NCBI RefSeq assembly: GCF_029962835.1
Contig: NC_080589.1
Coordinates: 20,605,586-20,669,585 of the forward strand
DNA: 64,000 nucleotides
Direction: 5' to 3'
DNA from: Magnolia sinica
Taxonomy: Eukaryota > Streptophyta > Magnoliopsida > Magnoliales > Magnoliaceae
This document shows, in pieces, positions 3,322 to 61,979 of the stretch. The position numbers and the translations under genes were made by a program. Each line of letters begins with the position of its first letter. Positions within the stretch are counted from its first letter, which is position 1. The notes beneath the pieces are model-generated. The model did no database searches, had not been told where the DNA came from, and worked only from the letters and a program-made list of their open reading frames with translations.

Positions 3322-3333
3322 CACTACAAGAAA
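3322..3333 (+). repeat. internal CACTA terminal repeat (CACTACAAGAAA)
   Basis: A perfect CACTA terminus is followed directly by another subterminal palindrome array (3340-3890). It marks either the real left end of C1 or the end of a second CACTA copy joined in tandem to the outer array. Confidence 0.8.
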
Positions 3334-3339
3334 GGGATT

Positions 3340-39500: not shown

Positions 39501-42165
39501 ATTGATCGTAGTTGTCCTATTATATGGGTCGCAGTTATCCTGTTATATAGGTTGTGGTACTTGTTATGGTTCGTGGTTATCATGTTATATTGGTCGTGGT
39601 TATCAAGTTATATGGGTCGTAGTTGTAATGTGACGTGTGCAGTTCATAAGGGTCGAGGTTGCCATGTGACGTGGACCCCACCTTGATGAATATGTCTAAT
39701 CCACGCCGTCCACCACCTTCTTCAAATTATTTCAGGCTAAGAGCAAAAAATGAGACAAATCCGAGTCCCGAGTGGACCACACCGAGGGAAACAAAGTCCC
39801 ATTGTTGGAACTTTTTAAGGCCTACTGTTGTGTTTGTATGGGTCGTAGTTGCCATGTTATATATGTCGTGGTTGTCATATTATATGTGTCGTGGTTGTCA
39901 TGTTATATGGATCGTGGTTTACATGTGTTCACTTCCTTTACTACCTAACCATTGGTACCATAGTCTAAGGCTTACAATGGGGTGATCCGATCCATCCACC
40001 TTGTCGGCCAGCTCACTATGGGCCTAAAAAGTCTTGACTTGGGCAGTGTCCACTTCTAACAAACATCACAGTGAGCTTGTAAAGTTTCAATAATCACCAT
40101 TATTTTCTATTTTGTGGCCCACACAAGCGCTGGATCAGGCTGATACTTGGGCCTTATCCCTAAAATGACACGACAAAAAGGATGGGTGGCATTAATTATA
40201 CACATACATCAATGTGGACCCATTTGGGTCGTGGTTCACACGGGTCGTAATTGCTATGTTATATGGGTCATGGTTGTCATGTTGAATGGATTGTGGTTTT
40301 TAACGTGTTCACTTTCTTTTTTACCAACTATTAGTACCTTAGCTTAAGGCCCACAATGAGTTGATCCGATCCATCTACCTTGTTGGCCAGTTTACCGTGG
40401 GCCTAAAAAGTCCTAACTTAGGTAGTGTCCACTTCTAACAAACATCATAGTGAACTTAAAAGGTTTCAATAGTCACCATTTTTTTCTATTATGTGGGCCA
40501 CACGAGCGCTCGATCAGGATGATATTTGGGACATATCCCTAAAATGACACGACAAAAAGGATGGGCGGCATGGATTATACACATACATTAATGTGGGCCC
40601 ATTTGGGTCGTAGTTGGCATGTTATATAGGTCGTGGTTGTCATGTTACATGGATCGTGGTTTTCATTGTATTCACTTCCTTTTCTAACAACTATTAGTAC
40701 CATAGCTTACACATGTTCACAGTGAACCTTAGAAAGTTCCAACAGTGGGACTTTGTTTCCCTCGGTGTGATCCACTCGGGACTCGAATCTGTCTTATTTT
40801 TGGATCATAGCCTGAAATAATATGGAGAAAGTGGTGGACGGTGTGGATTAAACATATACATTAAGGTGGGGTCCACATCACATGTCAACCTCGACCCTTA
40901 TGAACTGCACACGTCACATTACAACCACGACCCATATAACATGATAACCACGACCAATATAACATGATAACCACGACCCATATAATAGGATAACTACAAC
41001 ACATATAACAGGACAACTGCGGTCCATACAACTACGACCCATATAACAGGGCAACTGTGACCCATATAACATGACAACTGCATGCGATCCATACAACTAT
41101 GACCCATATAACAGGAAAATTGTGACCCATATAACATGACAATTACAACCCATATAACAGGACAACTGCGACCCATATAACAGGATAACTACGACCCGTA
41201 TAACAGGACAACTACGATCCATACAACTGCGAACCATATAACAGGACTACTGTAATCTATATAACATGACAACTACGACCCATACAACTGAGACCCATAT
41301 AACAGGACAACTAAGACCCATATAACATGACAACTGCGATCCATACAACTGCGGGCCATTTGGGTCGTGGTTTGCATGGGTCATAGTTGCCATGTTATAT
41401 GGGTCGTAGTTGTTATGTTGTATGCATTGTGGTTTTGAAAGTGTTCAATTCATTTTCTACCAAATCATTGATACCATAGCTTAAGGCCCACAATGGGGTG
41501 ATCTGATCCATCCACCTTGTCGGCTAGCTCGGTGTAGGCCCAAAAAGTCCTAACTTGGGCAATGTTCACTTCTAACAAACATCACAGTGAGCTTGAAAAG
41601 TTTCAACAGTCATCATTATTTTCTATTATGTGGGCCACACGCGCACTGGATTGGGCTGATATTTGGGCCTTAGCCCTAACATGACACAACGAAAAGGATG
41701 GGCAACATGGATTATACACATACATCAATGTGGGCCCATTTGGGTCGTGGTTTGTATGGGTCGTAGTTACCATGTTATATGAGTCGTGGTTGTCATGTTG
41801 TATGGGTCGTGGTTGTCATGTTGTATGGATCGTGGTTTTCAACATGTTCACTTCTTTTTCTACCAAACCATTAGTATCATAGCTTAGGGCTCACAATGGG
41901 GTGATCCGATCCATCCACCTTGTCGGCCAGCTTGCCGTGGGCTCAAAAAGTCCTAACTTGGGTAGTGTCCACTTATAACAAACATCACAGTGAGCCTATA
42001 AAGTTTCAACAGTCACCATTATTTTCTATTATGTGGGCCATATGAGCATTGGATCAAGCTGATATTTTGGCCCTAGCCCTAAAATGACATGGCAAGAAGG
42101 ATGGGTGGCATGGATTATACACATACATCAGTGTGGGCCCCACGAGTTGGGCCTTGCCCATGCCC
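39501..42165 (-). repeat. ~378 bp repeat array (right, inverted) with short tandem repeats
   Basis: Units appear in reverse orientation relative to 30992-32245: 'gtgttcacttcctttactaccta', 'ccatccaccttgtcggccagc', 'tttcaacagtcaccattattttctatt' and 'aaaggatgggcggcatgg'. They start near 39925, 40310, 40670 (truncated), 41450 and 41850. The interval 40915-41350 holds the short 'cgacccatataacaggacaactg' words. The whole forms the inverted partner of the left array around B2. Confidence 0.85.
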
Positions 42166-42417: not shown

Positions 42418-42429
42418 CACTACAAGAAA

Positions 42430-43265
42430 TTTCACTTTTACCTACGAAAAATTTCGTAGGTAAATGATATTATTTCGTAGGCAAAGAATTTTACCTACGA
42501 AATATTTCGTCGATAAATTCGTTGGTAAAAAGCCGTGGCTAAAGACTTTTACCGACGAAAAAATGTCATCGTCGGCAATGGTAAGACTTTTACCAACGAA
42601 ATTAAAAACTTTGTTAAGACTTTTACCTACGAAGTGTTAAGACCTTTACCTACGAACGTTTTCGTAGGTAAAAACTTTGTTAAAACTTTTACCTACAAAC
42701 ATTTTCGTAGCTAAAAACTTTGCTAAAACTTTTCCTTATGAACATTTTCGTAGCTAAAAACTTTGTTAAAGCTTTCACCTACGAATTTTTTCATAGGTAC
42801 AAATGGTGTTAGGACTTTTACCTACAAGCATTTTCGTAGCTACAAACTTTATTAAACTTTTACCTACGACATGTTTCGTAGGTACAAACTGTATTAAGAC
42901 CTTTACCTACGAATGTTTTTCGTCGCTAAAAGCCTTTTTATCATAGGCAATAAATTGTTCCGATGTAGTGTTTCGTCGATTATTTCGTTACTAAAAGACC
43001 GAGGGGAAACACTTTTACCAACGAAAAAAAATTCGTTGCCAAAGATAAGACTTTTGCCGACGAATTTCTTCATTGGTAAAACCTTTTACCAACGACTTCT
43101 TTCTTACAAAAATTTTACCAACGAATCTTTTCATTGGTAAAAGGTATTATAAAACTTTTTCCTACAAATATTTTCGTAGCTAAAAAGGTAGAAAGCAAAA
43201 GATGAGACTTTTACCTACGAAAAGTTTCGTGGGTAAAAATGCATTCTTTTACCTACGAAAATTCT
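42430..43265. repeat. CACTA C2 left subterminal palindrome array
   Basis: About fifteen 'ttttacctacgaa(a/c)..ttcgtaggtaaaa' units, some with the 'gtcgg/accgacg' or 'tagctac' variants. Confidence 0.93.
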
Positions 43266-43486
43266 TCTGTTTTTTTTTCCAATATTCCAATGAAAAATTC
43301 CTGATATACGCCTGTTACAATTCTTCCTAATATACACCTGTTATGTAATATATTTTATCATATTCACATTCATTCACGCTAATGGGCTCAACTTGTAGGA
43401 ACTGAGATATTACATAACATCCTCGAGTTGCAGATCATACAATTCATTTGTTCCCGACACTGGCTAACAAGTAATGAGACTTCACG

Positions 43487-43733
43487 AGCTACCTGTACCA
43501 GCTGGGCCCATGCTTACTGTATTTCTACGTCCCCTACCACCGCCAAAACCACTACCGCCTCGGCCGCCTCCAAATCGGCCACCACTATCTCTGCAACCTC
43601 TACCACCGCCGCTCCTGCCACCACCTTCACGGTTGTCACTTCTTGGCTCAAGGCGTAGTCCCCAAGTTCTGAACCGTTAAGTTCCAGGGCCATGAAGAAA
43701 CTAGCACCATCTGTTAAATCTAGGTAAGCTGAC
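43487..43733 (-). pseudogene. nucleolin-like protein, last exon with RGG tail, frameshifted
   Basis: After a clear acceptor (TTTGCAG, ending at 43734) the minus strand reads AYLDLTDGASFFMALELNGS and ELGDY, the end of an RNA-recognition motif as in plant nucleolins (...ALELNGSELG...). The frame is then lost near 43645-43660. In the next frame the expected Arg/Gly-rich tail follows: EPRSDNREGGGRSGGGRG, GGRFGGGRGGSGFGGGRGRR, MGPAGTGSS and stop at 43487. Nucleolin-like proteins act in the nucleolus in rRNA gene expression and pre-rRNA processing, and the GAR tail binds RNA. The second RRM core, the first RRM and the acidic N-terminus were not found. The exon lies just inside the C2 left array, so it is a captured fragment. 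Confidence 0.8.
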
Positions 43734-44130
43734 CTGCAAACAAAGGCGAGGCAAAAGTCACCTAACAAGCAACAACCAAACAGATATGGAAAATCCCCAA
43801 ATTATTTGCTCAAAAAAAAAAGATAAAAAGAATATGAGTAGGTATGTCAGAAGTGGCAATATTGAAAGAAATGGCATCTTCCCATTCAACACGGCAGTAG
43901 TATACATGGGGCCAATCAGCACATTTCTTGGGTTGACTTCCACAGAGCGCACAACTACACTTAGCATACATCTATACACATTGGCAAAACAAACCGCAAG
44001 AGCCTTTTTTTTGAAAGGTGTAATAAAATACAATAGCTTTTCTCAAAAGATGTCAGAACAAAATCGCGAGCATACCTACGCACATTTGACATTTAGCAAA
44101 ACAATTAGCTTTTTCACAAGACCTCTTGTC

Positions 44131-44222
44131 ACAAATAGCTTGGTCTAATTAAAATACCATCATCCTGAATAGCCTGGTCTAATTAAAATACCATCATCCT
44201 GAATAGCTTGGTCTAATTAGAA
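44131..44222. repeat. ~39 bp tandem repeat, 2.3 copies
   Basis: 'atagc(t/c)tggtctaattaaaataccatcatcctga' is repeated head to tail. Confidence 0.9.
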
Positions 44223-47200
44223 TATGATGCAACATGTATGTATCTTGGAGCTGAGCAAACTACAAACATAGACTGTTGAATAGTTTGAAAAAGAAAAGAA
44301 AAGATATGAAAACCATCATCCTAAATAAAACCATAGTGAAGGTAAAGGACATTCTGTTAGCAATATAAAGATGGAAATGGGCATGGAGCTTCAAAACATT
44401 CTGTTGATTCTCCCTTGCTAATGGAAAATCAGTAACCTGCATTGCCAGAAAAACATGAAAGAACACCACCAAGAAATCATTTTTAGAAAGAAGAAGAAAA
44501 CACACGCACGCATGCAACTAGCTCAGGCAAGTAGTTAGTATATGACAGACCATTCCTTCCATCTACAACATAAGTTGGCCACCCCATTGTTGCTTCAGCT
44601 TAGTTAAAAGGCTTTGTTCATGGTTAACATTCATGCTCCTGTCAAACAACAAAAGATAATCCAGAAACCTTCCTTGACTAAGAAAATCATTTACTATAAT
44701 CTAAATCATTGAAAAGTCTTTCAGGAGGGACAACCTTTTGCATTTTGACAGTTAAAAAGTTCAAACGTTCAGATTTCACAATTCTCCGCTTATTCTTTAG
44801 TAATTCACATGCCTGAAACAGATTTAGCAAACCATATTATCTTTGATTTTTTACCTTCGTTACAGTTTCTTCCTTCCACATATCAAATCCCTTGAAGAAA
44901 GACCTTGAAGAAGTACCTAATACATACATTAAAAAATAATAATAATAATTTAAAAATCAATGTACAAATAAGCCCAATTCAAATGAATGAAAGCCAAAAT
45001 AAAAATAAAAAGTCAACGAACTGTCAACCTGAAACATATTCGAACAGCCTTGGGTTAGCTTTGATGGGAATAAGGCCCAACCTATTGGCTAGGACTTCAT
45101 CTTGGACCACGATGTGTTGTCTACACCAACCATTCAATGCAACAAAAAACAACTGAGCCAACCATCTCAAAAGGTGGTTATAAACAAAAAGGAAAAGTCA
45201 TGTGCTATACAACTGCTTTTCTCTGTAAACATCGGCAGGTTCGTTCCCAAGTACGTGCTAGACAACTGCTTTTCTCTGCACATATTGAATACAATTAGTA
45301 AGATTTACACTTTAAAAAAGGACAATGAGAACCTAATTACCTTATCATCCAACTCGACTTGGCAAGATTTTGAGCTGCGTCTCTTCAAAACTCGTTGGAG
45401 ATTGACTCTTTAAAAAAACTTGCTGGAGATCCTGTCTTGATTCGGACTCAACAAGACTAGAAACATGAAAAGAGTTCTCGCAGGAATCCAATTCTAAGTT
45501 AAATCTTCAATTACACTACATCAATTAAGTTTACTAACAAGTAAACAGGCACTTCACCTTTACTATGTGTGCTTTCCAACAAAGCAAAATGGGACGAGAT
45601 GTCAATTGACCTTTCAACCAATCATGAAAAACAATTTCCCTGGATCCTTTCACAACCACACCTTGTCTTGGGAAAAACTTGAATCATGGATGAAAGGTTC
45701 ACATTCTTATATCAATGACATGGATAATTTATATAAACCAAGATCACTGAAACATAAATACTCTTAACTAAAATGAGATGAACTAATTTTAATTTACATT
45801 GCAGGTGGATTGTTAATGACAAAAATTTTAAGAAAGGGGACTGATTATATTAAAGTAGAAAATAGGAACAAAAAGTAGCAACCATAATTATTCGTTGCAT
45901 GTTCGATGTTTCAGTTCAAAATTTCCATTTTAATTTTTGCTGCGTTGAGAGAATTGTTCAGGGCCAAACTAGGAAACTGCCCATGCTCCAATTTCTTACC
46001 CAGCAGATCATTCCTAATAGGCAAATGATCCTTAAATAAAAACTGACAGAAACCATTAGGTATAGAAGTAATTCCTAATAGGCAAATGATCCTTGGAGCC
46101 TATAGAGATTTATGTAACCTAGAATGTTAAATACAAATCCCAAATAATGCTGAAACAAAGGTTTGACTCAATATTTATGGGAGTTTTATGCCAATTTAAA
46201 CATAAGGCACAATACCAAATTGAAGAATAAATCAAGTATTGTACCGCTAAACAGAGCAATACATTTTATTTTCAAAGAACTATCAATGCAAGAAATCTCT
46301 ACTTGAACACAATGCCCAAACCTTTCAAAGTCTTATGCAACTTTCACCATTTTATTAAATCAAAGTCAAAGAAATAAACTACATCATGTTCAATTTGAAG
46401 AAGATGATCCACTCTTGCATGACATCCACTCTGCGTAGTTGCTCCAGCTAATGTTGTGAAATGGGTCGAAAAAATTAAGATTTTCAGTGACCACATCCAA
46501 AAAAAAAAAACAATTGACATACCCCAAAATCATGCCTGAGTAATTCCATGTCCTGCTTGCACCAAAGCAATTAGCTAATTATTCCAAAGGAGTTACAACA
46601 GATTTAGAAGGACCATGAATCAATTTTTCATGAACAGTGACATATAATGCAAAGGAGTTTTGAGGCAGTACCTGTATTGCAATAATGAACTCTGAAACCA
46701 AAAGATAAGTGGGGCTCACATGGACTGCATCAGAATTTAAGTTAAACCAAAATAAAGAATACAAGCAAGAGATTAATGTGTCCAACCATATTCCACATCA
46801 CTTCACCTTGTATAACTGTTAAAATAAAATTAATTTGTCCAACCAAACATCACCATCTAGTGGTCCGTATTCAACACGGAAAAGCTCATCAATTGAAGTG
46901 GGGATTGTTCGATGGCCCCTAGCACGCAACCTTGCTTTCCAAGCCAAGAGTGTCTACATGAGATTTGGACATCTATTAGAGAGTTTAAATGAAAAAAAAA
47001 AAAGAAGATAAATTAAGAAAATCAATGGTTCCAATTTAACAAACAAATACCCATTAATAAGAAATCATGATGTCAAACTAATCTGATTGTGATGTACCAT
47101 ATCTGAAGTCGGGTCCACAGGTTGGGCAATTCAGATTAAGCCTTTCATCTGCAAACAAATAAAAAAAGAAAGAACTGTAAGCCCAAAATTGTTAGAGTAA

Positions 47201-48999
47201 GAACTTATAAGTACAGCCCCAAAATTTACCATTCTCCGTGGGCCTGATAAATTTATTCCAGTAAATCTTTCTTCATCTGCAACTAGTTGTAGAAGATCAA
47301 TGAAATTACAAATTACACAAACATTAGTTATTACTTGGCTACTGTAAATGGTAGAACACTGATACATTACTTGTGATTTGGCTCAGCTCATATTGGGTTG
47401 TATTGAAGGGTATTTAAAATCATGATTTTTTTTTCTATTCTATTTGCAGGAGAACTGTATCAACATTGCTTGCAAGCAGCTTTAGAGAGAGAATGGATGA
47501 ATTAATCTTGTCTTATTTACAAAGACAAGGAAACCAGTCTACAGTTGCCATTTCCATCTCAACTGTTTCACCAGCAACAGAGTTGGCAACACTCATCATG
47601 TGCATATGAACCCTCTCATAACTCACTTGTGAGTTTACTACATTCGAAATCTTTTACATTCCACTTATATTTCATATGTTAGTTACCAAAATCTTCACTT
47701 CTTTGTCATTCCCAAAAGAAAACTAAAATAAAAATTGTTGCAATCTTGCATGGTTATAGGACTTAAACAAGCATCAACCAATCCTACACGACTACCCAGC
47801 TTCGGGACGGAAAGCGGGACATGCAAACTACCTGATTTATCAGCTTGGGAACAAAAGAAGTGTGGAAGAAAACAGAACATTATGATAGAATAATTATGTG
47901 AAATTAACAGCTACAAATCAATAACAATAGAACAAAATTCCAACAAAACTGATTCAAAGCTTGCATGCAATGGCCAATATCTCCAGACCAAATTCATATG
48001 TAATATGCCAATATCTCTGAAACCACTTTTTTTCCACCCAATCAATAACACTGCATAATTCCCCTGCTACAACTTTCCCATTGAAACTGCTACTGAAAAA
48101 ACAAAGTGCTCTTCTGAAAGAGAGTACGTCTGCACCTTACAAGTGCTGAAATCCATTGCAGCCCCAGCTGAAAGTAATCCACGTCCATGGTGATTGCTAA
48201 AATGTTGGAGACAGGTAGCCAGATCGGCACAAGGACATTCAGAACTGATCCACTTCAGTTGGACTAGTACCAGCATAATAGACTTGCAGATGACACTTAC
48301 AATAGAAAGCACTTACCGTAAATTTAGTCAAGTCCATGACTTAGGCCCATGAGGATGAATTTCCTGTGACAACTTGGCGCCCATGAGAATGACCTTCCTG
48401 TGACAACATGGCACCATGTCAAAAGAATGGCAGCACACTAAAACCCTCATCCTATAATTTGAAAACAAAATCCAAATAGGAGGTGAGATAGAAAGGATTA
48501 TTAAAGCACACCTGAATCGACCATATGCATCTGCAAAGTCCAGACCACTAAGAGGATGGGCTAACGATGAACATGTAATTACCGAAAAAATAAATTTCCA
48601 GATTCAACATATGTGTGTCCCATTTTATGATAGGATTGACCTATCTTTGGACAATGGCATGTTCGTCATGGACACTACTACTTAATACTCGACATGTTTA
48701 CCATCTAACCATTTATGTTTAAATTGGGATAGTGACTATTATTCATTTTAATCATCAAGATATGTCCTTTAGACAGCAGATTAGTAGTAGGGCCCACAAT
48801 TTGAGCTGTACAATAAGTTTGGCAGGTGAACCTGAGCTGAAAAAACAGATGAAGGGGTGGATCTTTCACAAACATTACACTGGGAAACACCTAACTTGCT
48901 GTGCATTAGCTTTATTCCACACTTGTGTGGGCTTAGCAAAGCTCTATCTGTAGAGATACATGACATATTATCTTCCTGACAAAAAATACATTATAAGTA

Positions 49000-49250
49000 T
49001 GTATGTGTTTGAATGCAGACCACGCTATAGGAAACAGTGCTGATTGAATGCCCACCATTAAAAACTTCTCCAGGCTACAGGAGTTTTGGATCAAGTTGAT
49101 ATTTGGGTTTTCCCTTCATCCAGGTCTGTGTGACTAATCAACAGGCTGGATGACAAACAAACATTACAGTGGGCCTTAGGAAGTTTTTAATGGTCAGCGT
49201 TCAATCGCTACTGTCTCCTGTGGTGTGGTCTACCTTTGGTGTGGTCTACC
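49000..49250. mobile_element. MITE fragment
   Basis: It matches the interior of MITE copy 1: 'ggaaacagtgctgattgaatg', 'ttttggatcaagttgatattt', 'cattacagtgggccttagga'. The ends are missing. Confidence 0.75.
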
Positions 49251-49265
49251 TCGACATGATGGAGG

Positions 49266-49332
49266 GAGAAAGAGAGAGAGGAAGAGAGAAACGGAGAGAG
49301 AGAGGGAGAGGGTGCGAGAGAGAGAGGAGAGG
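49266..49332. repeat. GA-rich microsatellite
   Basis: Interrupted GA runs next to the 5' UTR-like sequence on the minus strand. Such CT-rich leaders (as read on the minus strand) are common in plant 5' UTRs. Confidence 0.85.
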
Positions 49333-49629
49333 GTGCGAATCGCATACCTTCCGATGCAAAAAATGAGAAACTAAAACCTCTGAAATGAGCACCCAATGGA
49401 AACGGAATCTCGCCCGAATTGGAGATCGAGTTTTGGGGTTTCTTGAATCCGAAAATGAGAGCAAGAGAGGGAGAAAATGAGAGCTAGAATCGGGTTTTAG
49501 GGTTTCGGTAATCCGAAAATGAGAGCGAGAGAGGGGGAAGAAATGAGAGCGAGAGGGGGAAAATCGTTTCGGTAATCTGAAAATCAGAGCGAGACCGGGA
49601 AAACGAATTTTGGGTTTAGTTTGCGCACA

Positions 49630-50145
49630 GTGTGCGTTTTACACCGTTTGGCCAGTGATGCTAGTCGGTGCTCTGTGGGCCCCACTATGATGTACGTGTT
49701 ATATCCACACCGTCCATCCGTTTTGAGATATCATTTTAAGTCATCAGCCAAAGAATGAGGGAGATAAAATCTGTAGTGGACCCCAGCTCTGAAAACAGCG
49801 AGGAGAGTGATTCCCACCATTGAAACTATCCTAATGCCCATCCATTATCTTTTGGGCCCACCGAGATGTGGTTCACAAATCCAGCCCATAAATTATGTGT
49901 GTGCCACTTGGATGAGGGGTCATACCAAGTTTCAGACGCATCCAATTTTCAGGTGAGGCCCACCAAGTTCTTTTATATGTTTTAGGCATGTCTTGACATG
50001 ATTTTAGATGGTATGGCCCACTGGAGTTCCGTATACGGCTGATTTTTGGGATATACCATAATTTAAAGGGGACCCATCAAATTCACGGTGTTGATGTTAT
50101 ACACACATCATGGTGGGGCCCACACAGCTTGACCTCATGGGGAGT
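49630..50145. mobile_element. MITE left half followed by a solo foldback arm
   Basis: The interval 49660-49850 ('ggtgctctgtgggccccactatgatg', 'tccacaccgtccatccg', 'gtggaccccagctctgaaaacag') matches the element at 52130-52600. From 49855 ('gcccaccgagatgtggttcacaaatcc') to 50140 ('cccacacagcttgacctcatgggga') it matches one arm of the 6057-6925 foldback. Confidence 0.75.
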
Positions 50146-51800
50146 TCCCATGACCTAATTGTGCTAAAATTTTGTATATATAGGCCTAATAGTTTGTTGA
50201 TCTAGACCATTGGACTTATTCCCCATCATGGACGGATCATACCCAATTTCGCAATTAGTTGATTTGAGCATTTTGGATGATCCAATATTTAATGTGGACT
50301 TTCCATTCATTCAATACAATAATGGACAATGCTCTTGAAAAAATCACAATGATTAGATCATGCAAAGAAATGCCTAATATATTAGGCAATGATTAACAAA
50401 ATAGCTAGTAGAAATTTACTAGTTAAATTAACTAAGTGGAAAAAATTAATAATTATTGATTTTTGTAGCTATATGTGGATATTTTAAAACCATTTTCATT
50501 TATATGATTGAAATAAGAAAATACCAACATAACTTCTTGTTTTTTTTTTAAAAAAAAAGTTTAAAATAAATAAATAAAACAACATTACCCGCGAAGATTT
50601 CAATCTCCTCATATTGTTTGAGATAAGAGTTTTGGATTGCATGGGTGTGGGGATGCCGTTGATATGGTTGTAAGAGCACATGATGTTATTAATGTCTCCT
50701 TACTTCACACACATCTCGTCTCCGTACTTCACACACATCTCGAATGGACGGAAGAACGTTTCCACCATGTCTTGCTCAGTCACCTTCAAAAAAATTATTT
50801 AAAAGATACATTTGTGGTAAAGATCCAGGACATTAATCAGGGATACCACATCATGAACTTGCCCAGGCCAAGTTTGCTCATCAGTAGGCCACATTGAATT
50901 ATTGTCATACAAACGTGGTTTTGGGACAACACAACCATTAGCTTAATCCAAAACCGTTGTGTGCCCGCCTCAAGAAACAGTGTTGATAGAACATCCACTG
51001 TTGTGTGCCCCAAGAAACAATGTTGATGGAACATCCACCAAGATTTGGGATATCCTTTAACATCCTAAAAGATCCCACTTAAGATCTTTAGAGGATAATA
51101 TCGGATCCCGACGATCTTGAGAACCACTCATCTCACAGACATCCCAAATTACAGCCAACATATCAGGCGAGAGTCCTCCTGAAATTGTATTCTGGTTCTC
51201 TTATAAATATATAGGTACCTCCCACTATCCAAGATACGTTCACTGAGAAACCCTAAATACTTGACTAATATTTCTTTTTTGGAGATCCTACCATACTCTA
51301 TAAAACCTCGATACTGACTTAGGCATCGATGAGTCCCCTGTATTGGCCACGGTCTGCTGAAAAACAGCACCAACACATTTCATGTACTCCCATCCAAACA
51401 CAACTAGTAAGTCATTTATTCCCAATTCATTTACCTCCATTTTCATTTTCCATTTAACTTCATTTATAGGCTATCGTATGTGCCCTATATTTGATTTGCA
51501 ACTAAGTACTTTTATCTTTTTAATTTTTTGATGCAAGTAGACTCCTCGTTCTTCTTCTCTTTGTGGAGCCATCAAGGAGCATATAAGTAGGTATACTGTA
51601 TAACTGAGTTGTTGCAAGGCCATTGCAATGGCATTGTAAAATCCATATCACACATGTTTGCTGGTTAATGTCATGATATGAGACGAAAAATCTCGAGTAG
51701 GATATAACACTAGGAAATGTACAATCACCTGCCATTGCAACCAATTACATACATCTGGACGAGCCCCATGGTAAGGGCCATCACTACCCAATTCGAGTCC
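50146..51800. other. AT-rich DNA inside C2, no gene recognised
   Basis: There is a short repeat of 'cttcacacacatctcg' at about 50704-50735 and a local duplication of 'agaaac(a/c)(g/a)tgttgat(a/g)gaacatccac' at 50975-51045. Short frames match nothing I know. Confidence 0.5.
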
Positions 51801-52600
51801 CAGATCAAGCTGATGTTTGTGTTTAATCCATGCTATCCATTTATTTTTAAAGATCATCTTATGACATGAGACAAAAAATGAGGCATGTACGAATTTGAAA
51901 TGGACCACGTTACAAGAAATAGTGTTAAATGAGCGTCAGCCATTTAAAACATTCTAGGGCCCATAAAAGTTTTGGATCAAGATGATTTTTGTTTTTCCCC
52001 TTCATCTAGGCCCGTATGACCTAATAAACAAATTGGAAGCCAAATAAACAGTACAGTGGGCCTTATGAGGATTTTAATGATGGATATCCAATCACTATTG
52101 TTTTCATGTGGTGTGGTCCACCTGATATTTATATACCTCTCATTTTTGAGCCCCACCTATGTTTTAACTCCACACCTTCCATCCATTTGGAGAGATCATT
52201 TTAGAGCAATATCCATAGTTAAATCCAGAGCTCCAGTGGACCCCAGCACAGAAAACAGTGGAGACAGTGACACCCACCGTTAAAAACTTCTAAAGGCCAC
52301 CAAAGTTTTAGATCAAGCTGATATTTGTATTTTACCTTATTTCATGTCTTTTTTAACTTTTGAACAGGTTGGATTTCAAATAAAAATTATGGTGGGCCTT
52401 AGGATAGTTTCAATGGTGGGAATCACTCTCTCCAGTGTTTTCTATGGTGAGGTCCACTACATGTTTTTATCTGCCTCATTCTTTGGGTCACGCTCTAAAA
52501 TAATATCTCAAAATAGATGGACGGTGTAGATACAACACATACATCATAGTGGGCCCCACAGAAATTGGTGACGTCACTTCAGTAGCCAACTCGCTACTCA
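51800..52600. mobile_element. two adjacent MITE-type elements
   Basis: The first (51800-52140) carries the MITE copy 1 interior ('gttttggatcaagatgattttt', 'cagtacagtgggccttatgagga'). The second (about 52140-52600) begins with a 'ccccacctatg...ccacaccttccatcc' half and ends with an inverted 'ggacggtgtagatacaacacatacatcatagtggg' half, so it is palindromic overall. Confidence 0.7.
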
Positions 52601-52611
52601 AACCTGTATCT

Positions 52612-52815
52612 AATCCGCGTCCGGCGTCCAGCGTCCAGCCCCCCCCCCCCCCCCCTCTCTCTCTCTAACTAATCCGCGGTCCCCTCTCCTCTCTCTCTCG
52701 CCCTAATCCTCTCTCTCTCTCTCTCTCTCTCAACCTGTCAGTAGCTAGACCCTGCCCACGCACGCCCTCGCTCTCTCTCTCTGAAGCTCGGTTGACAGGG
52801 ATTTGTCGAACGTGG

Positions 52816-52852
<37 letters not shown>

Positions 52853-52855
52853 GCC
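52612..52855. repeat. C-run and CT microsatellites, possible CT-rich leader
   Basis: 'gtccggcgtccagcgtccag' is followed by a run of about 16 C (52638-52655) and several CT runs (to 52850). A CT-rich stretch with 'gccctaatcc' upstream of plus-strand exons could be the leader of a captured gene, but there is no proof. Confidence 0.6.
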
Positions 52856-53719
52856 GATTTAGGAATTTGGGGATTTATTAATTTATGGATTTTTGATTTG
52901 ATGAGGACCCTCATTTCGGGATTTGGGGATTTTAGGGCTTACAGATTTGAATGTGGACCCCGAATTGGGGTTTTTCTGATTTTACAAATTAGGGATTTGA
53001 GGATTTTGGGGATCTGAGGATCCAACCAGAATTAGGGATTTCTGATTTTACAAATTATGTGGTGTAGTCTTCTTGAGCATATGTGATTTGAATAGTGGTT
53101 GCAATTTCTTCAATCTTAGATCCATTTCGTGATGTTTCTCTTCAGATTTGCATATGTGATTTGAATAGTGGTTGGAATTTCTTTCATTTTTAGTTTGTTT
53201 TTACTTGAATTTTGTTGAGATGGCTAGCATTGGATTCTCAATTGAATAAACTTCCCTGGATTTGTTGATTTGATTGGGTTTTCACTTTTGATTCGTGGAG
53301 CCCACACCCGGACCTTTGCTTTGAATATGGACTACTCCTTTCATCAATTTCTTACTGAATTTAATCCCTTAAATGTTTTACTGTGTTGTCCGTATTTGAC
53401 CCTTAATTCTTGATATCATCTGGAGTGTTTTTATTACTAGAAAACTATAAGTATGGAATGATTTTTGTATTGAATAAAATTTTCTTACTTGTTAGATACA
53501 TAGATTTTAATTGTTGGTGCATATTTTTGTACTACTCTACCCAACCAATGTTTTTACATTCTTGTTGGAATAATTCCTTGTTGTCTATCATTTATCTTTC
53601 AATGATTCATTCGCCAAATTTGGTGGATTACTCTTATTTTATGGTGCAGATATTGAACTGGATTAATTCTACTGTTAACTATCAGTGCTAGTTTCAAGAT
53701 AATTGGTAGAAAGTGCCCT

Positions 53720-54262
53720 TTGATTTTGAATTTTACATTGTTGTTTATAACTGTCATCATGAGGGCTTTTCAAGGACTCCGACGATGTTTGTATCTATTA
53801 TCTTTATATGCCAAGTTGAATCTCCTGTCATCAGCAAGTAATCATGCAAGAACATTATGTCCTCAATGCATGATGAAATCAATTTCAATCAGCATACCTG
53901 AGACTGGAGGTTTGCTAACCCCTCATGTATCCTCCACTAGTCCACATGCACCTCTATTTGGGGCTCCACATGCCAACCTGGCAAATGTTATCTATGTATC
54001 ACGTGTGAACCAGTGTAGATCATCTAGCCAGAAACTCAAGCTATTCAACTGTCAGGTCAGCTGCACGGGAATAGGCAGATTTGGTGGCCTTGAAAATGAC
54101 TGTCCAATGTTTTTGTTCATTTGTGGCTGGCCTGAGTGGTTTTCTGGACTGGCTTTTGGCTGGATAATCTACACCGTTTTCCACCTGATACGTGGCCTGG
54201 ATGTCATATGCACGTGCCCAGTTAGCATGCATAGCCACATGTGGAGGTGCCTGTGGGGCTAG
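53720..54262 (+). CDS. hypothetical open frame, 180 codons
   Basis: This is the longest uninterrupted plus-strand frame in C2, with an inner ATG at 53759 (MRAFQGLRRCLYLLSLYAKL). The translation is Ser/Cys/His-rich in the middle and hydrophobic near the end (FSGLAFGWIIYTVFHLI). I recognise no family, and codon use gives no strong hint of selection. It lies between the CT-rich leader and the LanC-like exons on the same strand, so it could be part of a captured transcript. A chance frame is at least as likely. Confidence 0.2.
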   Translation: MILNFTLLFITVIMRAFQGLRRCLYLLSLYAKLNLLSSASNHARTLCPQCMMKSISISIPETGGLLTPHVSSTSPHAPLFGAPHANLANVIYVSRVNQCRSSSQKLKLFNCQVSCTGIGRFGGLENDCPMFLFICGWPEWFSGLAFGWIIYTVFHLIRGLDVICTCPVSMHSHMWRCLWG

Positions 54263-56444
54263 AACCTCAAAGTAGTGAGCAAACATCTCTTTATCTACTG
54301 AAACTTAATGTTTTACTGCTATGAATTTGTTCCGCTTCATTTTATGGGTTTTGTATTTGGAATGTGCTGAGATAATGTTACTGGATTAATTATAATCTGG
54401 GTATTTTTCATTTTCTGTTGTTTTTATGGGTCTTTTGTTGTTTTTATGGGTATATATGGTCCATTTAAGCAACGCCACTGGATGATTGTTTCGGATTTCA
54501 TACACATTTACCACATTTAGAAATGGTGACTTTGATACAAAAAAAGAAAAAAAAAAGAAAGAAAAGAGAAGAAAACAAAAGAAAGGTAACTAGTAAACTA
54601 CGTCAAGTGTTCTAGGTTTTATCTTTCTCCAGCAGTTGTTTCATGAGAAACCCTTGTTTGGATTCTCATGTTGATGGCCACAAAAATCGGATATGGATAA
54701 TTTCTGATCTGGGTGTTTCATTTCGAAACTTTTCCATGGGGTACTCTTGAAAGTGTGCATGGGGGTGTAAGAGTGCGTGTGTTCTCACATTTCAAAAAAG
54801 AAAAGAAAAAAGGAACCATTAATCAGTTTAGCTTGTGTTTGGCTTAGCCTCTGAGAACATTAATATGTGATTTTGGATTTCTACTCTTACACTATTAGTA
54901 GAAAATCCAAAAACAGTTAAATAATATTCATGTGGATTTGAAAGAAGTCTTTTGTTTTTTCCTAATACAACACAAAACATCCCCATTTTGTGATTTTTGG
55001 AAATCTACTAAGAGTAGAAATTCCAAAATCACAAATTAGTATAGCCACAAGTGCAGCTTTTCACTCAATTTTAAATGATGAAAATGTGTCCTATTATTAT
55101 AATGAGGACAGAGCCCACAAAATGCAGTTATGTTTCTTTTGACTCCAACTGAGTGTAAGGTGGTTTCAACATGGAGATCATTTGAATGCACAATTCAATT
55201 GAACTGTGTTTGGCTCAGCCCATTAGAAGAATAATTTATTTTGTTCGGATTTAAATACAGGCTTATGGACAAAAAAAAAGCTCTCAATTTAAATACAGGC
55301 TTATGGATCATTTTGATGGCATGAGAATGTTCAGATTTGCTTACATTGCAGTTTTAGAAAGAAAAAACTTACCAACAGAATGTGGCTTAATTGGTATGCC
55401 AGCAATTTATTTTGTTCAAGGAGGAGGTTATTCCAATAGAGTGTTATTGTTCAAGAATGAGGCTCCGCCGTCCTGTCCAGTAGAGGCAAAGGAACTTTAT
55501 TAAACCATTTTGGTTTGTACTTGAAAAGCAAGCTGCTTTTATTCTTGTCATGGATGATTTGTTTGGATGCACATAGTTGATTGCAAGAATATAATGTTAT
55601 TACAAAAATCTCGTCTCTTGATTGAGCTGAATATTTACTTTCATTTCTTGTGTGTGTGGAAAGCATTTGATATATGGGTGTTCAGTTGAACATAATTGCA
55701 ATAATTCAATCTGTTGGGTCACCCATGTAATCGAAAATTACAGTGAGTCTACGACTCTAAATTGCAATAATTGCATTCTTCGGTCATAGCATTCACTTCT
55801 AATTCCATCCTTCGTTGCCTTGCCATTCATCTATCTCAACATCCTTGTTTAGCTACACATTATATAAACATTTTGTTGTCTAACATTCTGTTCTATAAAA
55901 GCATGGCTGATCTGACAGTTGTCCTATAAAATCTCCCCTTCATTTTGATTGGTATGCAGGGATCGCATAAACTTCTGAAGCTCATCTCTCTTTCATCTAC
56001 CTTCTCTAATTCAATGAGCAACATTCTTCTCAATCTCTCTGTCGTCATGAATTATTGACCCGAGATGTCAGAAATGGTCATTTTGGGTTACCTTGTGGCA
56101 ATCAATCTTAATTAATTCCTCACTTTGCACTCATATCATTACTAAAATTGCTAAAATTGCATTCCACAAACTCTATTTTTATCCCATCATTTTTGAAACT
56201 TTAGATTCTGAAACATCCCTCCATATTTCCAACTTTTAGGCATATATAGGACAAATTAGGATGGCACATTAAAATACCCATATTGATGCCTGCAGGCTTA
56301 GTGACCCTCTTATTTAGATGGTCACATTTTCGTTGAATGCAGACATAAAAAGCTTGAGATTGGTTCGTGCTGAAAAATGGATTCACTTTCAAGGCTTGGT
56401 GACTTTTGCCTTTACATCATTCCCATTACCTATTTATTTTTCAG
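54263..56444. other. AT-rich, intron-like DNA; no firm exon
   Basis: One stretch (55303-55503) has an open frame with LPTECGLIGMPAIYFVQGGG that I cannot place. At 55961, after 'ggtatgcag', the frame reads SHKLLKLISLSSTFSNS. This faintly resembles the 'DSLxxLLSLPYxxFS' exon that precedes the LanC-like exon at 56445, but the match is too weak to annotate as such. Confidence 0.4.
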
Positions 56445-57391
56445 ATTGTGAAGGAGACTTGGGTACGGGCTGGACGGTGTGTTAGGGATTTCACTCTCTA
56501 CACTGGCTCCCTTGGGACAGCATTCTTACTTTTCAAAGCATATGAAGTCACCAAGAACAAGAATGATCTCAATCTCTGCATTGAAATTGTGAGGGCTTGT
56601 GATACTGCTTCACGAGAATCAAGGTACTTGTGTGAATCTTTTTCTTAGTTAATTTCGTATATCTTTCACCTATCTTACTCGATTGATGTGAATCTTTGCA
56701 TAGGTACAATATCCAGGCTATCTCTAAAATGATTCTGAAGAATGTTTAGTATGAGAAATCATTGAAAAACTCTGCATTGATCTTTCAAAATAAAATAAAA
56801 AATATGCATTGCCTGGGTGACTATATGGTGTAATAACAAACGATCTTGGGATATGCTGTGGATTGTGCGTGAAAGGAGCCTCTAGAAGGAGCATTTTGTT
56901 TTAAGGTGGACCTTGACGGGTATTGCACTATTATCATCATGCTGCTTACTGTGTGCATCTTTGTATATGCAGACATGTGACATTCATCTGTGGTCAGGCT
57001 GGTGTGTGCGCCCTTAGTGCCGTGGCTGCAAAGAACGCTGGGGATCATGCACTGCTCAACCACTACCTATCCCAGTTCAAAGCGGTAATGCTTTGAAAAT
57101 TTGTTGGCTAGAAAGTTAGTAATGGTTGTCTTCTTGAGCCGAAAAAGATATTTATGCGGTAGTAAACCATTGTTTCTTTGTTTGGAATTCTAAATGCTTA
57201 TTGGTTACCCTTGTAACTCGTGTACTATCCATTTATTGTTCCTCGTCAGGTGTACTACCTCATTTGGCCATCACTTCTCTTGGGGGTTTCTGGACTGTGT
57301 ATGAATTGCCACTTCATAGGGTATGGTCGTGAAGGAAATCATCAAGGATGGAATACGATTAGCCAACAAGGGTAGTTGCCCATTGATGTAC
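56445..57391 (+). pseudogene. LanC-like protein (GCR2/GCL family), three exons with an internal gap
   Basis: Exon a, 56445-56623 (acceptor TTTTTCAG, donor GTACTT), reads IVKETWVRAGRCVRDFTLYT, then GSLGTAFLLFKAYEVT and ACDTASRES. Exon b, 56973-57084 (acceptor TATGCAG), completes the split Arg codon and reads HVTFICGQAGVCALSAVAAK, ending QFKA at donor GTAATG. Exon c, 57320-57391, reads GMVVKEIIKDGIRLANKG and SCPLMY. These match consecutive parts of plant LanC-like proteins (about 400 residues, GCR2/GCL1/GCL2), homologues of bacterial lanthionine cyclases once proposed as abscisic-acid receptors. The segment between b and c in the family ('..LPYELLYGRAGFLWACLFLNKHIG..') is missing, although b and c are only 235 bp apart. 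The zinc-binding His/Cys region and the C-terminus are also absent. Reading frames within exons are clean. It is a captured, internally deleted fragment in C2. Confidence 0.85.
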
Positions 57392-58728
57392 GTAGCATTT
57401 ATTTCTGTCCAATAAAGTCAATTCATCATAATCCTTTGGTTTGTTTTTCTGAATCTTCATCCGTCTCATCAATGCCTCTTCTATTTATATTCCTTTTTTT
57501 AATAAAAAAAAATTAATTTTTCTGTCCTTGGTATTTATTTAATTTCTTTTCTATGGAATTTTTTGATGTTGGTTTTCTTTTCTTCTCTTTTCCATCTTTG
57601 TGTCTATATTTCTCAGTTTATCTTATATGGAGGCTTTCTGAAACATATGTTGAGTTGCTGGAAATCCTTGCACTTTGATCAATGGTCTCCATTTAGGAGA
57701 ATATACAATGGAATTTCAGAAAAAAAAAAAAAAAACAGGGAAAAATATTGGATGGCTAGGGACTTTAAAATTTCAAGAATTTTAGTGTCCCCCATCCATG
57801 GTGTGGCCCATCAGACCAATGGTCTGGAGAACTTGGACCATAAGCCCCCATAGTAAGGAATGGCTGCATCGGAAGACTTTTCATGTCCTGATGCATCCAG
57901 AAACAATTCAGTAAAGGCTGTTTTTAAAAAGTTTGGTTTCTGGACGCATTTCTTATGAACTGGTTCCATTTTAGAATCTCTACCATGTATCATGAGAAGT
58001 AGGGAAAAAAATTTGCATGCAATTAGTTTCTCAAATTGCTTAAGCTATGCATTATTGAAGGACATGGAAGGGTTACAAACCAAAATAAAGAGCACTTGGG
58101 TAATTACGAGGTGGAGCCATTACTTGGAAAGCTACTACTTTTTACGAGCTGGATGCTGTGATAATTCAGAACCATTTAAAAAAAAGAAAAAAGAAACAAA
58201 AAATGGTGGTGACTCTTCAACCATACACATGACAGTTTCAAGGTAATCCAGAGTGTTCAAATCTCTGAACCACATAACCAAAAGTTATACTAAGAATATC
58301 ACTGTAACCATCTTTTTGCCCTTGGAATTTGGACCATTCACCAATTTACTTTTAACCCTCCATTTGGCATCCATCAATTGGATGGTTAAGATTTCTTGAT
58401 CAGGGTGATTTTAGAGAGATGATCCATACACAACATTTCTTACGGGATGGTATGGATAGATGCACATGAATGCCACGTGTGAGGATGAGTCACCACCAAT
58501 TCAAAATGGAGGTCAACCATCACAGTAGTCCACTTCTTATAGCCACTTTTCTGCCCTGTTATCTCACTTCTTCAAACTGCTTCCTCTAAGGCAGAAGCTA
58601 ATGTCCACTGCTACTACATTAAGTGCAAAAGCGCACCATGCCACTGTATTTTCAACCGTTCTGCATTCCTATTAATTTTAACACATGCAACCTTACCGGT
58701 ACTGGAAGAACACATGCTATCATTTTAC
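57392..58728. other. no exon of LanC-like or NUP205 genes found
   Basis: I looked for the 'EWHGKRYWGAAHG' exon of LanC-like genes (plus) and for the 3' exons of NUP205 (minus) and saw neither. The stretch contains poly-A tracts (57720-57735) and intron-like AT-rich DNA. Confidence 0.5.
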
Positions 58729-59632
58729 CTGTAAGCCATGCAGAATCTCAGGCATGGGAAGCTCAGGAAAATGCGCAAGATCAATGAATCCCACCTCCTC
58801 TGCCCTTTTAGCTGCTGCCATAGCTTGCAGACACAAACTTCAAAAGAAGAAAAGCAATTCTGTAGATCTGTATAGCAACAGAATCAGTGAAGTATGTTCT
58901 ATGGATTGAATCAGCTCTTCCATTTGCTCGATCCTTGATTGGGAGAGACAGGGCCATGCTTGAAACTGAAGAGATGGGAGCTTCAGACCCACAACCAAGA
59001 GCAGAAAGAATAAACCAACCATGTTTGCTGTCAATGGATGGTGGTCTTCCATTAGATTCGACCTCCTCTTTTAATATCGGAGGACATAAGAGAGGTGCAG
59101 TCCTACGTGGAGATTCTCCAATGCGATGAGGTCCCTTGCTTATAAAAGCTAAAAGATGAATACTTCTCTCTCTTAGTTGTGAATCCATTTCTTTCATGGC
59201 TTTACTCCATGAGTGCTGATGTTTCACGAGCATGCAGATAAGCATGAGGGTGTTCTCTGTTTCTCTCAGTGCTGTTAGAGAGGTTAGTACCCTCTGAGTT
59301 CGGGCTCTCTTCTTGCTATGATCGTCAGTCGGGACGTCTGGTGCGGAAAGATAGAATAATATCAAATACGATTTCTCGAAAAAGTAAGGAATCATGCTCT
59401 CCACAATATCGATACAAGATGGATCATCCCCCAAAGAGCAAATCATAGCGCTGACAATAGCCAGTCCTAGTCCCCAAATGTTATGAGGGTTTTCTTCTTT
59501 GTCACTTTCTTCTTGACCATTTGGAAAAGGCTTGTCATCCAATAAGAGAGCAAACAACACCTTTAGAGATGAAAACAGATTGATGGTTTGAAGCATCTCA
59601 ACACCTCCTCTGATGCATGCATGGATGCTGGT
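58729..59632 (-). pseudogene. nucleoporin NUP205, single internal exon with frameshift
   Basis: The minus strand from about 59632 reads RGGVEMLQTINLFSSLKVLF, ALLLDDKPFPNGQEESDKEE, NPHNIWGLGLAIVSAMI, then SWSKAMKEMDSQLRERSIHL, LLCPPILKEE and IQIYRIAFLLLKF. This is a C-terminal-half exon of plant NUP205 (about 1,850 residues), a scaffold subunit of the inner ring of the nuclear pore. After LLKF the frame is lost near 58837. In another frame the expected LCLQAMAAAKRAEEVGF, IDLAHFPELPMPEILHGLQ follows and reaches a proper donor (CAG|GTAAAA at 58729). The observed frame instead adds VSASYGSS and stops at 58808. The exon is about 900 bp, well conserved apart from this lesion of one inserted or two deleted bases. 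No neighbouring NUP205 exon was found. It is a captured exon within C2, antisense to the LanC-like cargo. Confidence 0.9.
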
Positions 59633-60060
59633 CTATGCACATCCACCTGTCTTGGCTTTGATACACATACTCATGGGCAGTATAGGTGCATGCTGGATGA
59701 CTTGGATTAGTTGGACTTGGATGGTTAGTCATATTTACTTGTGTTTGTGCTTGTTGCTTGATTCAATTTGTTTTGTTTTCCAAGTTAGTGAACTTTATTT
59801 TCTCAATAGAAGTTATAAGTTGTTGAGTATCTTTGGTTTTATGATTTTACTTGTATATTCTTGTATTGATTGCTCAAGCATAACGATAAGTTGTTGAGAA
59901 ATTTGTTTAAAAATTTTTTATAGTATATATCTGTGGGTTTAGATGGATGTGAATGTGAATGTGAATATGATGAAATATATTAGATAACAGGTGCATATCA
60001 GGAAGAATATGAAGAGCTATATTGTAATAGGTGAAGAAAAAGAGCAAGAGTTTAATATTA
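59633..60060. other. C2 right interior: AT-rich plus conserved CACTA segment
   Basis: The interval 59935-60035 ('gatggatgtgaatgtgaatg...gatgaaatatatta', 'catatcagga') matches C1 at 30310-30420. The remainder has no features. Confidence 0.7.
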
Positions 60061-60064
60061 TCCA

Positions 60065-61147
60065 CGTTTTTTACCTACGAAACATCTCGTAGGCAGGCAA
60101 AGGATTGATATTTTTACCTACGCAACATTTCGTAGGTGAAAGTGTCCTATACATTTTTTAGCTACGAAAATAGTCGTAGGTAAAAAGCTTAGCTCAGTTA
60201 AAAATTATACTTATACCTACGAAACATTTCGCAAGTAAAAGCCTCATGTACGTTTTTAACCTACGAAAGGTTCCTACAAAAATGGCCGTAGGTAAACGCT
60301 TCAAGTTAAAAATAATATTTTCAGCTACACACCAATTCGTAGGTAAAAGTGTCTTACATGTTTTTTAGCTACGAAAATAGTCGTAGGTAAAAATCTCATA
60401 TGAGTTAAAAATTAGTATAGAAAATTTATATTTTTACCTACGAAAACTTTCGTAGTTAAAGGTCTTAGGTAACTCTAAATTAAATATTCTATTTTTACCT
60501 ACGAAACATTTCGTAGGTAACGGTCCCAAACAGTTTTTTACCTACGAAAATAGTTGTAGGTAAAACTTGAAATGAAAAATTATATTTATACCTACGGAAA
60601 GTTTCGTAGGTAAAAGTCAAGTAATCTCTTCAATTTTAGGTTTTTCAAAAAATCAAAATACTACTTACCTATGAAAATTGTCATCGGTAAAGATGACTTT
60701 CTACGAACTTCTATGTCGTAGGTAAAAGAAAACTTTTCGATTTTTTATTTTTTCAAAAATGCAAAACACCCCTTACCTATAATATGGTTGGTTGGTGAAA
60801 ATGACTTTTACCTACGAAACTATATTTTGTAGGTAAAAGTAAACTTTTCGATTTTTTATTTTTTCAAAAATTTCAAACACCCATTACCTACGAAAGTGTT
60901 TGTAAGTAAAGATGACTTTTACCTACGTAATCTAATGTCGTAGGTAAAAGTAAATTTTCAAGTCAAAACACCCTTTACAGCCTTCACCTACGAAAATTTT
61001 CGTAGGTAAAGATGACTTTTGCCTACGAAATTATATTTTGTCGGTAAAAGTTTACTTTTACTTACGAAAAAGATTTTCGTCGGTAAAAGTCATCTTTACC
61101 TACGAAAATTATTTTCGTAGGTAAAAGTTTCGTCGGTAAAAACCATA
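60065..61147. repeat. CACTA C2 right subterminal palindrome array
   Basis: Around twenty 'ttacctacgaaa..tttcgtaggtaaa' units with 'tttttcaaaaat' spacers, some of the 'cgtcggtaaaa' type near the end. It is longer than the left array. Confidence 0.93.
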
Positions 61148-61185
61148 TTTCTTGTAGTGAAAGAAGAATACATCAGTTGAATGCT

Positions 61186-61193
61186 TATAAAAG
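61186..61193 (+). promoter_or_regulatory. TATA box of the peroxidase gene
   Basis: TATAAAAG lies 80 bp upstream of the peroxidase ATG and only 27 bp downstream of the C2 terminus. All sequence further upstream that could hold enhancers has been replaced by transposon DNA. Confidence 0.7.
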
Positions 61194-61476
61194 AGGCAGC
61201 ATCTCTGCAGCTGTATGGCAATGGCGTTTTGACACTCCAAAATTACAAAACCCTTGTTTCTGTGGGAAGAAGATGAAAGCCAGCTTCCTTATCTTTCTGG
61301 TCTGTTTTGGAGCTCTTGTTGTTTGTAATGAAGGTGATCTGCAGAAGAACTTCTACAAGAAGTGCTGTCCTCTTGCTGAGACTATCGTGAGTAACATCAC
61401 GCAGCAGCACGTCGCTGCCAACTCGGCGTTGCCGGCGAAGCTCTTGAGGCTGCATTTCCATGATTGCTTTGTTAGG

Positions 61477-61979
61477 GTAATGAAAATCTTTCCCATCGGT
61501 TGAAATCGCTGCCGTCCATTGTCCGGTTGGATCCTTCGCGTGTAACAGCCGTTGGATTGGGATTTGGACGGTTGTGATATGGAGTGACAGTGAGGTTGTT
61601 TTATTTAGTTCTTACTAACTAGTGTTTGCATGTTTTTTCCTACATATGCACACCCATGCAATCTGGGTCGTTCATCACGTGGGTCCGCCGTGTTTGTGCC
61701 ATTTCCTGGCCTCCCACACGCACGCCATTGACCGGCGGTCTATACTTCATATACGCACGTGACCCACATGATGACCAGGACATAGACTGATTTCTGGGCC
61801 ATGGCACATACACGGTTGGTCTTACTCGACGAACGTTAACAGCACAAACGCAAAAATACACACATGCTGCATTGGCACGTGTTGGTGATCATAGCAGAGC
61901 TCTACGTGCACTATTCCATGCACGCGCATAAAAGTTACGTGTATTAGCTACTTTTACCATGCGGCCATATGTTTTGTAG
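61477..61979 (+). other. peroxidase intron 1
   Basis: Donor GTAATG and acceptor TTTTGTAG fit. It contains repeat-family text ('gtgggtccgccgtg', 'acgtgacccacatgatg') but no element ends. Confidence 0.8.

Follow-up and report, generated by a model that had tools for sequence, protein, structure and literature searches.

An 18.7 kb non-autonomous Pack-CACTA element with fragments of host genes in Magnolia sinica

Introduction

In the Tpn1 family of Japanese morning glory, En/Spm-related elements were reportedly seen by Kawasaki and Nitasaka in 2004 to capture host genes. The soybean CACTA element Tgm-Express1 contains fragments of five unrelated host genes within 5.7 kb (PMC1947982). In maize, Pack-TYPE elements often hold several loci, Pack-CACTA most of all, and wider elements hold more (PMC8903248). 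CACTA families of wheat, in turn, appear to have exchanged captured DNA (PMC4290129). Here we describe an 18.7 kb CACTA element at positions 42418-61159 of a 64,000-nucleotide stretch of Magnolia sinica (hereafter the window; C17:20605586-20669585, C17 being chromosome 17; window coordinates 1-64,000). A single genome, that of M. sinica, was examined, and the searches covered 1,838,573,281 bases in 127 contigs. The element is very probably a non-autonomous composite Pack-CACTA, whose parts were joined between elements, with a piece of NUP205 added late, and which would have been mobilised in trans as a unit.

Like Tgm-Express1, the Magnolia element is a CACTA with fragments of several unrelated host genes. 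It differs from the soybean element in its greater length, in having three identified parents in addition to older cargo that was already borne by transposable elements, and in being present in at least 8 full copies. CACTA ends, the lack of a transposase and coding DNA of several loci are shared with the Pack-CACTA elements of maize, rice and Arabidopsis (PMC8903248), from which the present case departs by its magnoliid host and by parents and junctions resolved by hand. As in the CACTA elements of wheat chromosome 3B (PMC4290129), there is gene capture with signs of exchange of captured DNA between families; the wheat study counted 140 capture events, some of them expressed and under purifying selection, a sign that the Magnolia element does not give. 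A sequence-only reading of the window had singled out the number of unrelated fragments in one bounded element, but this is not unusual by itself, given the five of Tgm-Express1 (PMC1947982) and the several loci of Pack-CACTA elements (PMC8903248).

The kind of element is already known from Tgm-Express1 and maize Pack-CACTA, and the value of this one is in its resolved parents, relatives and junctions. No published record of this Magnolia CACTA family turned up in our literature search. Hybrid-element formation, gap filling and template switching are the competing models for how transposons with terminal inverted repeats (TIRs) acquire host genes. In the Magnolia family the junctions are resolved to the base, the parents are known, some relatives look pre-capture and one assembly contains several recent copies, so that these models can be directly compared on it.

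Termini and copies of the element

The element starts with the TIR CACTACAAGAAA (42418-42429, forward strand) and ends with its exact inverse, TTTCTTGTAGTG (61148-61159, reverse strand). Both 12-bp ends are intact and form the perfect inverted repeat, beginning with CACTA/CACTG, that is expected of CACTA (DTC) elements. With up to 1 mismatch, the terminus has 5 matches in the window against 0.45 expected, a number reached in 0 of 100 shuffles. Both ends also have the subterminal arrays of direct and inverted short repeats typical of CACTA elements. On the left, repeat comparison of the ends revealed 43-bp tandem units with ACCTACGAAA/TTTCGTAGGT (42430-43381); on the right, the arrays are in a block (59645-61147) whose start is the exact site of another CACTA's right terminus in relatives. 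From the 23 occurrences of ACCTACGAAA and its inverse in the window, 22 are within the two ends of the element and 1 is at 30461, and the direct and inverted repeats D2, I3 and I4 are common to both ends. The perfect termini and the matching arrays that the sequence-only reading had described were therefore recovered. CACTA-type ends are abundant in the M. sinica genome, since the terminal motif CACTACAAGAAAA occurs 1303 times in forward and 1297 times in reverse orientation, far above its reversed control (73 and 78).

Copies were searched with three abutting interior stretches (43300-48000, 48000-55000 and 55000-60000), the best 35-40 candidates being scored in each. At least 8 full copies, including the window copy, were found on six chromosomes: C17 (window), C10:8.39, C1:39.25 (C1a), C1:138.38 (C1b), C3:18.54 (C3a), C3:28.62 (C3b), C4:23.47 and C18:28.43 Mb, the middle of the last one aligning in two pieces. 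A ninth copy, at C11:19.39 Mb, is left-truncated: it begins at 46373, directly next to the terminus of another CACTA. In a relative at C10:5.27 Mb, 46022-55348 is present along with 57727-61159, the alignment having small gaps. Seven copies measure 18.65-18.99 kb from end to end. Divergence, with gaps excluded, was taken from the stretches on either side of the middle: full copies differ by 0.25-1.73% substitutions over 43300-49400 and by 0.12-1.16% over 53600-60000, the latter reaching 1.46% with the C11 copy included.

All 8 full copies have an intact left terminus, and 6 of them, as well as the truncated C11 copy, an intact right one. The right terminus is damaged in C10 and lost in C4 (L015/L020, C4:23.46-23.48 Mb), where the copy breaks off near 61108 and is succeeded by 29 bp that also occur, unchanged, in its own left flank. 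Homology between copies ends within a few bases of the termini. The 3-bp target site duplication (TSD) expected of CACTA elements is present, with identical triplets, in 4 of the 8 full copies (C1b, C3a, C3b and C18; the triplets are TGT, TGC, ATT and AAT), and 4 or more identical TSDs in 8 would occur by chance with a probability of 4e-6 under a uniform-base model. With all left ends kept and identical TSDs in half of the copies, both termini belong to one element, which was amplified together with its cargo. As in Pack-CACTA families, several copies (8 full ones) carry the same cargo; such further copies with CACTA ends had been named in advance as support for the sequence-only reading. The copies are 0.12-1.73% apart, against about 3-10%, by piece, from the parents, which indicates that the 18.7 kb unit was amplified after gene capture.

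Cargo and parent genes

The nucleolin-like (reverse strand), LanC-like (forward) and NUP205 (reverse) pieces recognised by the sequence-only reading were confirmed by profile or structure-chain matches and by alignment to their parents. All three donor loci are elsewhere in the genome, as in other Pack-CACTA elements, with about 90-97% identity by piece: NUP205 at C4:99.78, LanC at C17:73.35 and nucleolin at C12:1.05 Mb.

The NUP205 fragment (57664-59621, reverse strand) consists of part of a 537-aa open exon and the following intron, and aligns in one piece, at 96.7%, to C4:99781500-99788500. The stretch 58811-59632 (reverse) matches residues 1568-1835 of 9sob_B (E 2.8e-70), a chain named 'Nucleoporin (DUF3414)', which we take to be NUP205. 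In the C4 locus, the 537-aa exon matches residues 1376-1869 (5e-133), and, in order, the open reading frames (ORFs) that flank the captured stretch match residues 1227-1355 (8.6e-28) and 1868-1939 (1e-20). Since exons are colinear on both sides, this locus is evidently the NUP205 gene itself.

The LanC-like fragment (55789-57390, forward strand) aligns in three colinear pieces, at 95.0-96.4%, to C17:73349000-73356500. The stretch 56403-56645 (forward) matches 3t33_A (E 4e-23), presumably GCR2, and Pfam LANC_like was found in 2 of 69 ORFs; in the parent, the pieces cover LANC_like positions 2-68, 126-241 and 238-350. The parent (L041) has two stretches, 1562-2045 and 3060-4979 (485 bp and 1.9 kb), that neither the window copy nor the C9 locus L032 contains, and the edges of both show alignment overlaps of 4-5 bp. 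They look like insertions into the LanC gene, possibly younger than the capture, with deletions in the element as the alternative.

The nucleolin-like fragment (43382-44137, reverse strand) surrounds the last exon, with the end of an RRM and a Gly/Arg-rich tail. It aligns in four pieces (92.6, 96.5, 89.6 and 94.9%) to C12:1049500-1057000 (L040), a locus whose exons include two with Pfam RRM_1 and a last one rich in Gly/Arg; from this make-up we assume it to be nucleolin. A multi-exon block left unidentified by the sequence-only reading is partly accounted for by a fourth donor candidate at C1:47.06 Mb, to which 46704-47357 (94.5%) and 47880-48505 (92.3%) align. This candidate gave no Pfam match in 6 ORFs and no PDB match for 1 ORF.

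Much of the cargo is shared with other loci. The backbone at 46392-54400 is common to sister loci found in the genome searches, mostly at 93-98% by piece. The sequence at 44138-45826 is common, together with the nucleolin piece, to 13 other loci at 94-98%; two of these (L017 and L018) were checked and both have a left CACTA end. The nucleolin piece is also found in L042, a CACTA with different arrays. A LanC-bearing block (54400-57667, forward strand) recurs in the same extent, apart from a small extra stretch around 55495-55501, at C9:29.93 and C9:22.55 Mb, while the LanC gene matches only 55789-57390; the distance from the C9:22.55 Mb block to a right end of this CACTA family is about 3 kb. 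LANC_like matches are found at 25 places, 5 of them in two gene loci; the other 20 cover only the N-terminal part, with 9 in this element and 11, the two C9 loci among them, elsewhere. In the search with 55000-60000 (best 40 of 4497 candidates scored), by contrast, NUP205 was matched only in the 9 composites, the relative at C10:5.27 Mb and the gene. We suggest that the cargo was accreted stepwise, as the LanC and nucleolin pieces are also present in other CACTA-type loci, and that the NUP205 piece appears to have come straight from its gene. The idea of gene capture by a CACTA thus holds as far as parents exist, but this element did not itself take every fragment from a gene.

Junctions of the NUP205 fragment

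At the left junction, a microhomology of 4 bp (ATCC, 57664-57667) is common to both partners; 4 bp or more would be shared in 2.1% of random junctions of the two loci. On the right, homology to the gene stops at 59621, followed by a 23-bp filler (59622-59644) and by ACCTGTCTTGGC from 59645. All 9 composite loci and the relative L028 have the filler, for which no source outside this CACTA family was found among the locus sequences compared. At least 9 other loci match exactly from 59645 (best 40 of 4497 candidates scored). In all 6 of those that were fetched, a different CACTA right terminus, with GCCGGCGG-type subterminal sequence ending in CTTGTAGTG, directly precedes this position. From 59645 on, the nine loci are 4-5% from the composite, and further left they are unlike each other; 4 of them list 55000-55927 upstream, at two different distances. 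Since these loci are diverse leftwards whereas the composites are nearly uniform, we take the state with a second CACTA terminus at 59645 as probably older than the composite.

The coincidence of the capture joint with a transposase cut site suggests that a cut at the second terminus started the capture of NUP205, and the junctions fit the repair of a transposon-cut end with ectopic DNA. In rice, excisions of DNA transposons were repaired with foreign filler of 1-123 bp (PMC4423477); the Magnolia case is similar in the foreign origin of the filler, but the proposed one has about 2 kb and was kept inside a mobile element. Animal Pack-TIRs also have breakpoint microhomology, for which the authors favour breaks inside elements over excision in most single-copy cases (PMC8277862).

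Traces of a comparable process may be seen in the flanks of two copies. The right flank of C10 has 282 bp of the right flank of C3a at 99.3%, followed by divergence, and that of C1a has 81 bp of the flank of C3b at 95%, followed by Copia-like sequence (Copia by eye) that is also found on the left of C1a. These patches are consistent with synthesis that ran beyond the end of a template copy and was followed by end joining, which would explain the missing TSDs of C10 and C1a. A cryptic downstream terminus was considered as the cause of the 282-bp flank of C10 and was not seen in a search by eye. The NUP205 piece could then be a capture fossil, left when a nested second CACTA was cut at its right end and the end was healed by about 2 kb copied from another chromosome, in a family that still repairs breaks ectopically and so acts as a running capture engine. 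We advance this broader proposal tentatively, with its chances slightly below even.

Transposase and mobilisation

No transposase domain was found in 121 ORFs scanned (69 + 52), which comprise all stop-to-stop ORFs of at least 55 codons in the element, chosen shorter ones, and 13 outside it or across its edges. The lack of an own tnp2/Transposase_21 is expected of a non-autonomous CACTA member and bars only a claim of autonomy. Weak Pfam matches to DUF7660 (0.0083), DUF3915 (0.0095) and PRC2_EED_ins (0.0021, below the cut-off and in an ORF outside the element) were set aside. Transposase_21 has at least 150 scored matches in the genome, of 1669 candidates, and none in 14 control genomes. Among the matches listed, the closest pair of a right end (33 of them) and a Transposase_21 (147 of 150, excluding 3 on unplaced contigs) is 120 kb apart. 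Two Transposase_21 genes, at C18:38408674 and C9:29948519, have sister-locus or LanC-block sequence about 13 and 16 kb away and are possible autonomous relatives.

Origin of the composite and alternative explanations

In the proposed history, older CACTA elements would have picked up the nucleolin tail, the LanC 5' piece and other DNA, and recombination between elements would have joined these parts. NUP205 would have joined them at a late stage, when a broken end was filled with copied DNA; the break would have coincided exactly with the right terminus of a second CACTA, located within or next to the element. Once complete, the 18.7 kb unit would have been recognised by its ends and mobilised in trans, resulting in at least 8 full copies.

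A hybrid-element origin by local hopping, proposed for Arabidopsis Pack-CACTA (PMC13317346, PMC8903248), would have neighbouring CACTAs lose their facing ends while the outer ends mobilise all between, NUP205 being enclosed chromosomal DNA. Closely spaced ends do occur, as L046 has a CACTA right terminus and a second one 1.5 kb on, and the terminus abutting 46373 in C11 also agrees with this model. However, the NUP205 gene is on another chromosome (C4), and the captured stretch is the only match to the window (E 1e-8) in the 7 kb fetched there, so no sequence of this element is beside the gene. The 4-bp microhomology and the 23-bp filler are also repair-like, and we regard this origin as unlikely, though worth keeping in mind. 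That the two termini come from different elements, enclosing a patchwork of nested or adjacent insertions that never transposed together, would agree with the differing triplets of the window copy and with two other CACTA termini in the window (3322 and 30926). Against this, the same termini and interior are found at 7 other places, and we rejected the idea as extremely improbable given 8 dispersed copies that share their ends and the exact TSDs in 4 of them. Segmental duplication or assembly artefacts could account for the short flank stretches common to C10/C3a and C1a/C3b, but these end after 282 and 81 bp, no other flank pair of different copies matches at E 1e-4 (plus strand), and the flanks beyond the termini are unrelated and include TSDs, which makes this explanation hardly credible.

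Another possibility is that the cargo is retained because a chimeric protein or RNA made from it is useful. None of the 9 copies of the NUP205 exon shows a stop at the codon positions of the parent, and captured exons of soybean Tgm-Express1 can be spliced into transcripts (PMC1947982). On the other hand, with 4-5 synonymous and 11 non-synonymous changes counted, the pN/pS of this exon against its parent is 0.64 in 8 of the 9 copies, the remaining one, C18, having 0.81; 2 of the 9 have a 2-bp deletion, whose frameshift is not propagated in the stop count, and the nucleolin piece changes frame within its tail (by eye). Young neutral copies of the NUP205 exon would look like this. No sign of selection on the cargo was found in the pN/pS of the NUP205 exon over the 9 copies, the cargo looks like non-coding passenger DNA, and retention for a function seems highly unlikely to us.

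Some observations weigh against the composite, trans-mobilised element that we prefer. Four of the 8 full copies have no identical TSD, the triplets being different in C17 and C1a and unreadable in C10 and C4. For the window copy, the triplets had been read correctly in the sequence-only reading (CAA on the left, AAA on the right), but they are not identical and do not verify a duplication. Its left flank shows no clear homology to the upstream region of four aligned paralogs of the peroxidase gene on its right side, and, with these triplets and this flank, the insertion event of the window copy itself is not proven. With one genome examined, there is no true empty allele. None of the 43 listed matches to the joined window flanks (best 40 of 665 candidates scored) spans an empty site, these matches including two separate halves, five tandem peroxidase paralogs from 61160 on and left-half repeats. 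The 81-bp patch of C1a differs at 4 positions, more than the copies do. No Transposase_21 is tied to these termini among the matches listed, and decayed transposase remnants may be present in ORFs under 55 codons, which were scanned in part.

Neighbouring peroxidase gene and other features of the window

The peroxidase gene flanking the element (61186-61500, forward strand) has a TATA-like TATAAAAG at 61186 and its ATG at 61273, so the element ends 26 bp upstream of the former and 113 bp upstream of the latter. Five tandem peroxidase paralogs on C17, in a cluster at 20.58-21.00 Mb, match only from the edge of the element on. An effect of the element on the adjacent gene is plausible, and the locus is an example of a large element bearing gene fragments set next to the TATA-like motif of a peroxidase gene.

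The window has a second perfect pair of CACTA ends, at 3322 and 30926 (27.6 kb apart), whose flanking triplets, TGG and GTA, do not match. Near the right end of this pair is a telomere-like tract at 27935-30192, in which one strand has degenerate CCTAAA repeats over about 2.2 kb, followed by a short TTTAGGT stretch in the opposite sense; the GC skew is -0.86 over 28001-30000. Similar sequence is also present near a CACTA end in L042 (C12:65.66 Mb). In the left flank of the 18.7 kb element, a repeat of about 340 bp (41398-42140) is also found at 31100-32200 and 39883-40600, with copies 86-89% alike, and the stretch 42198-42336 matches 33 other loci among the matches listed.

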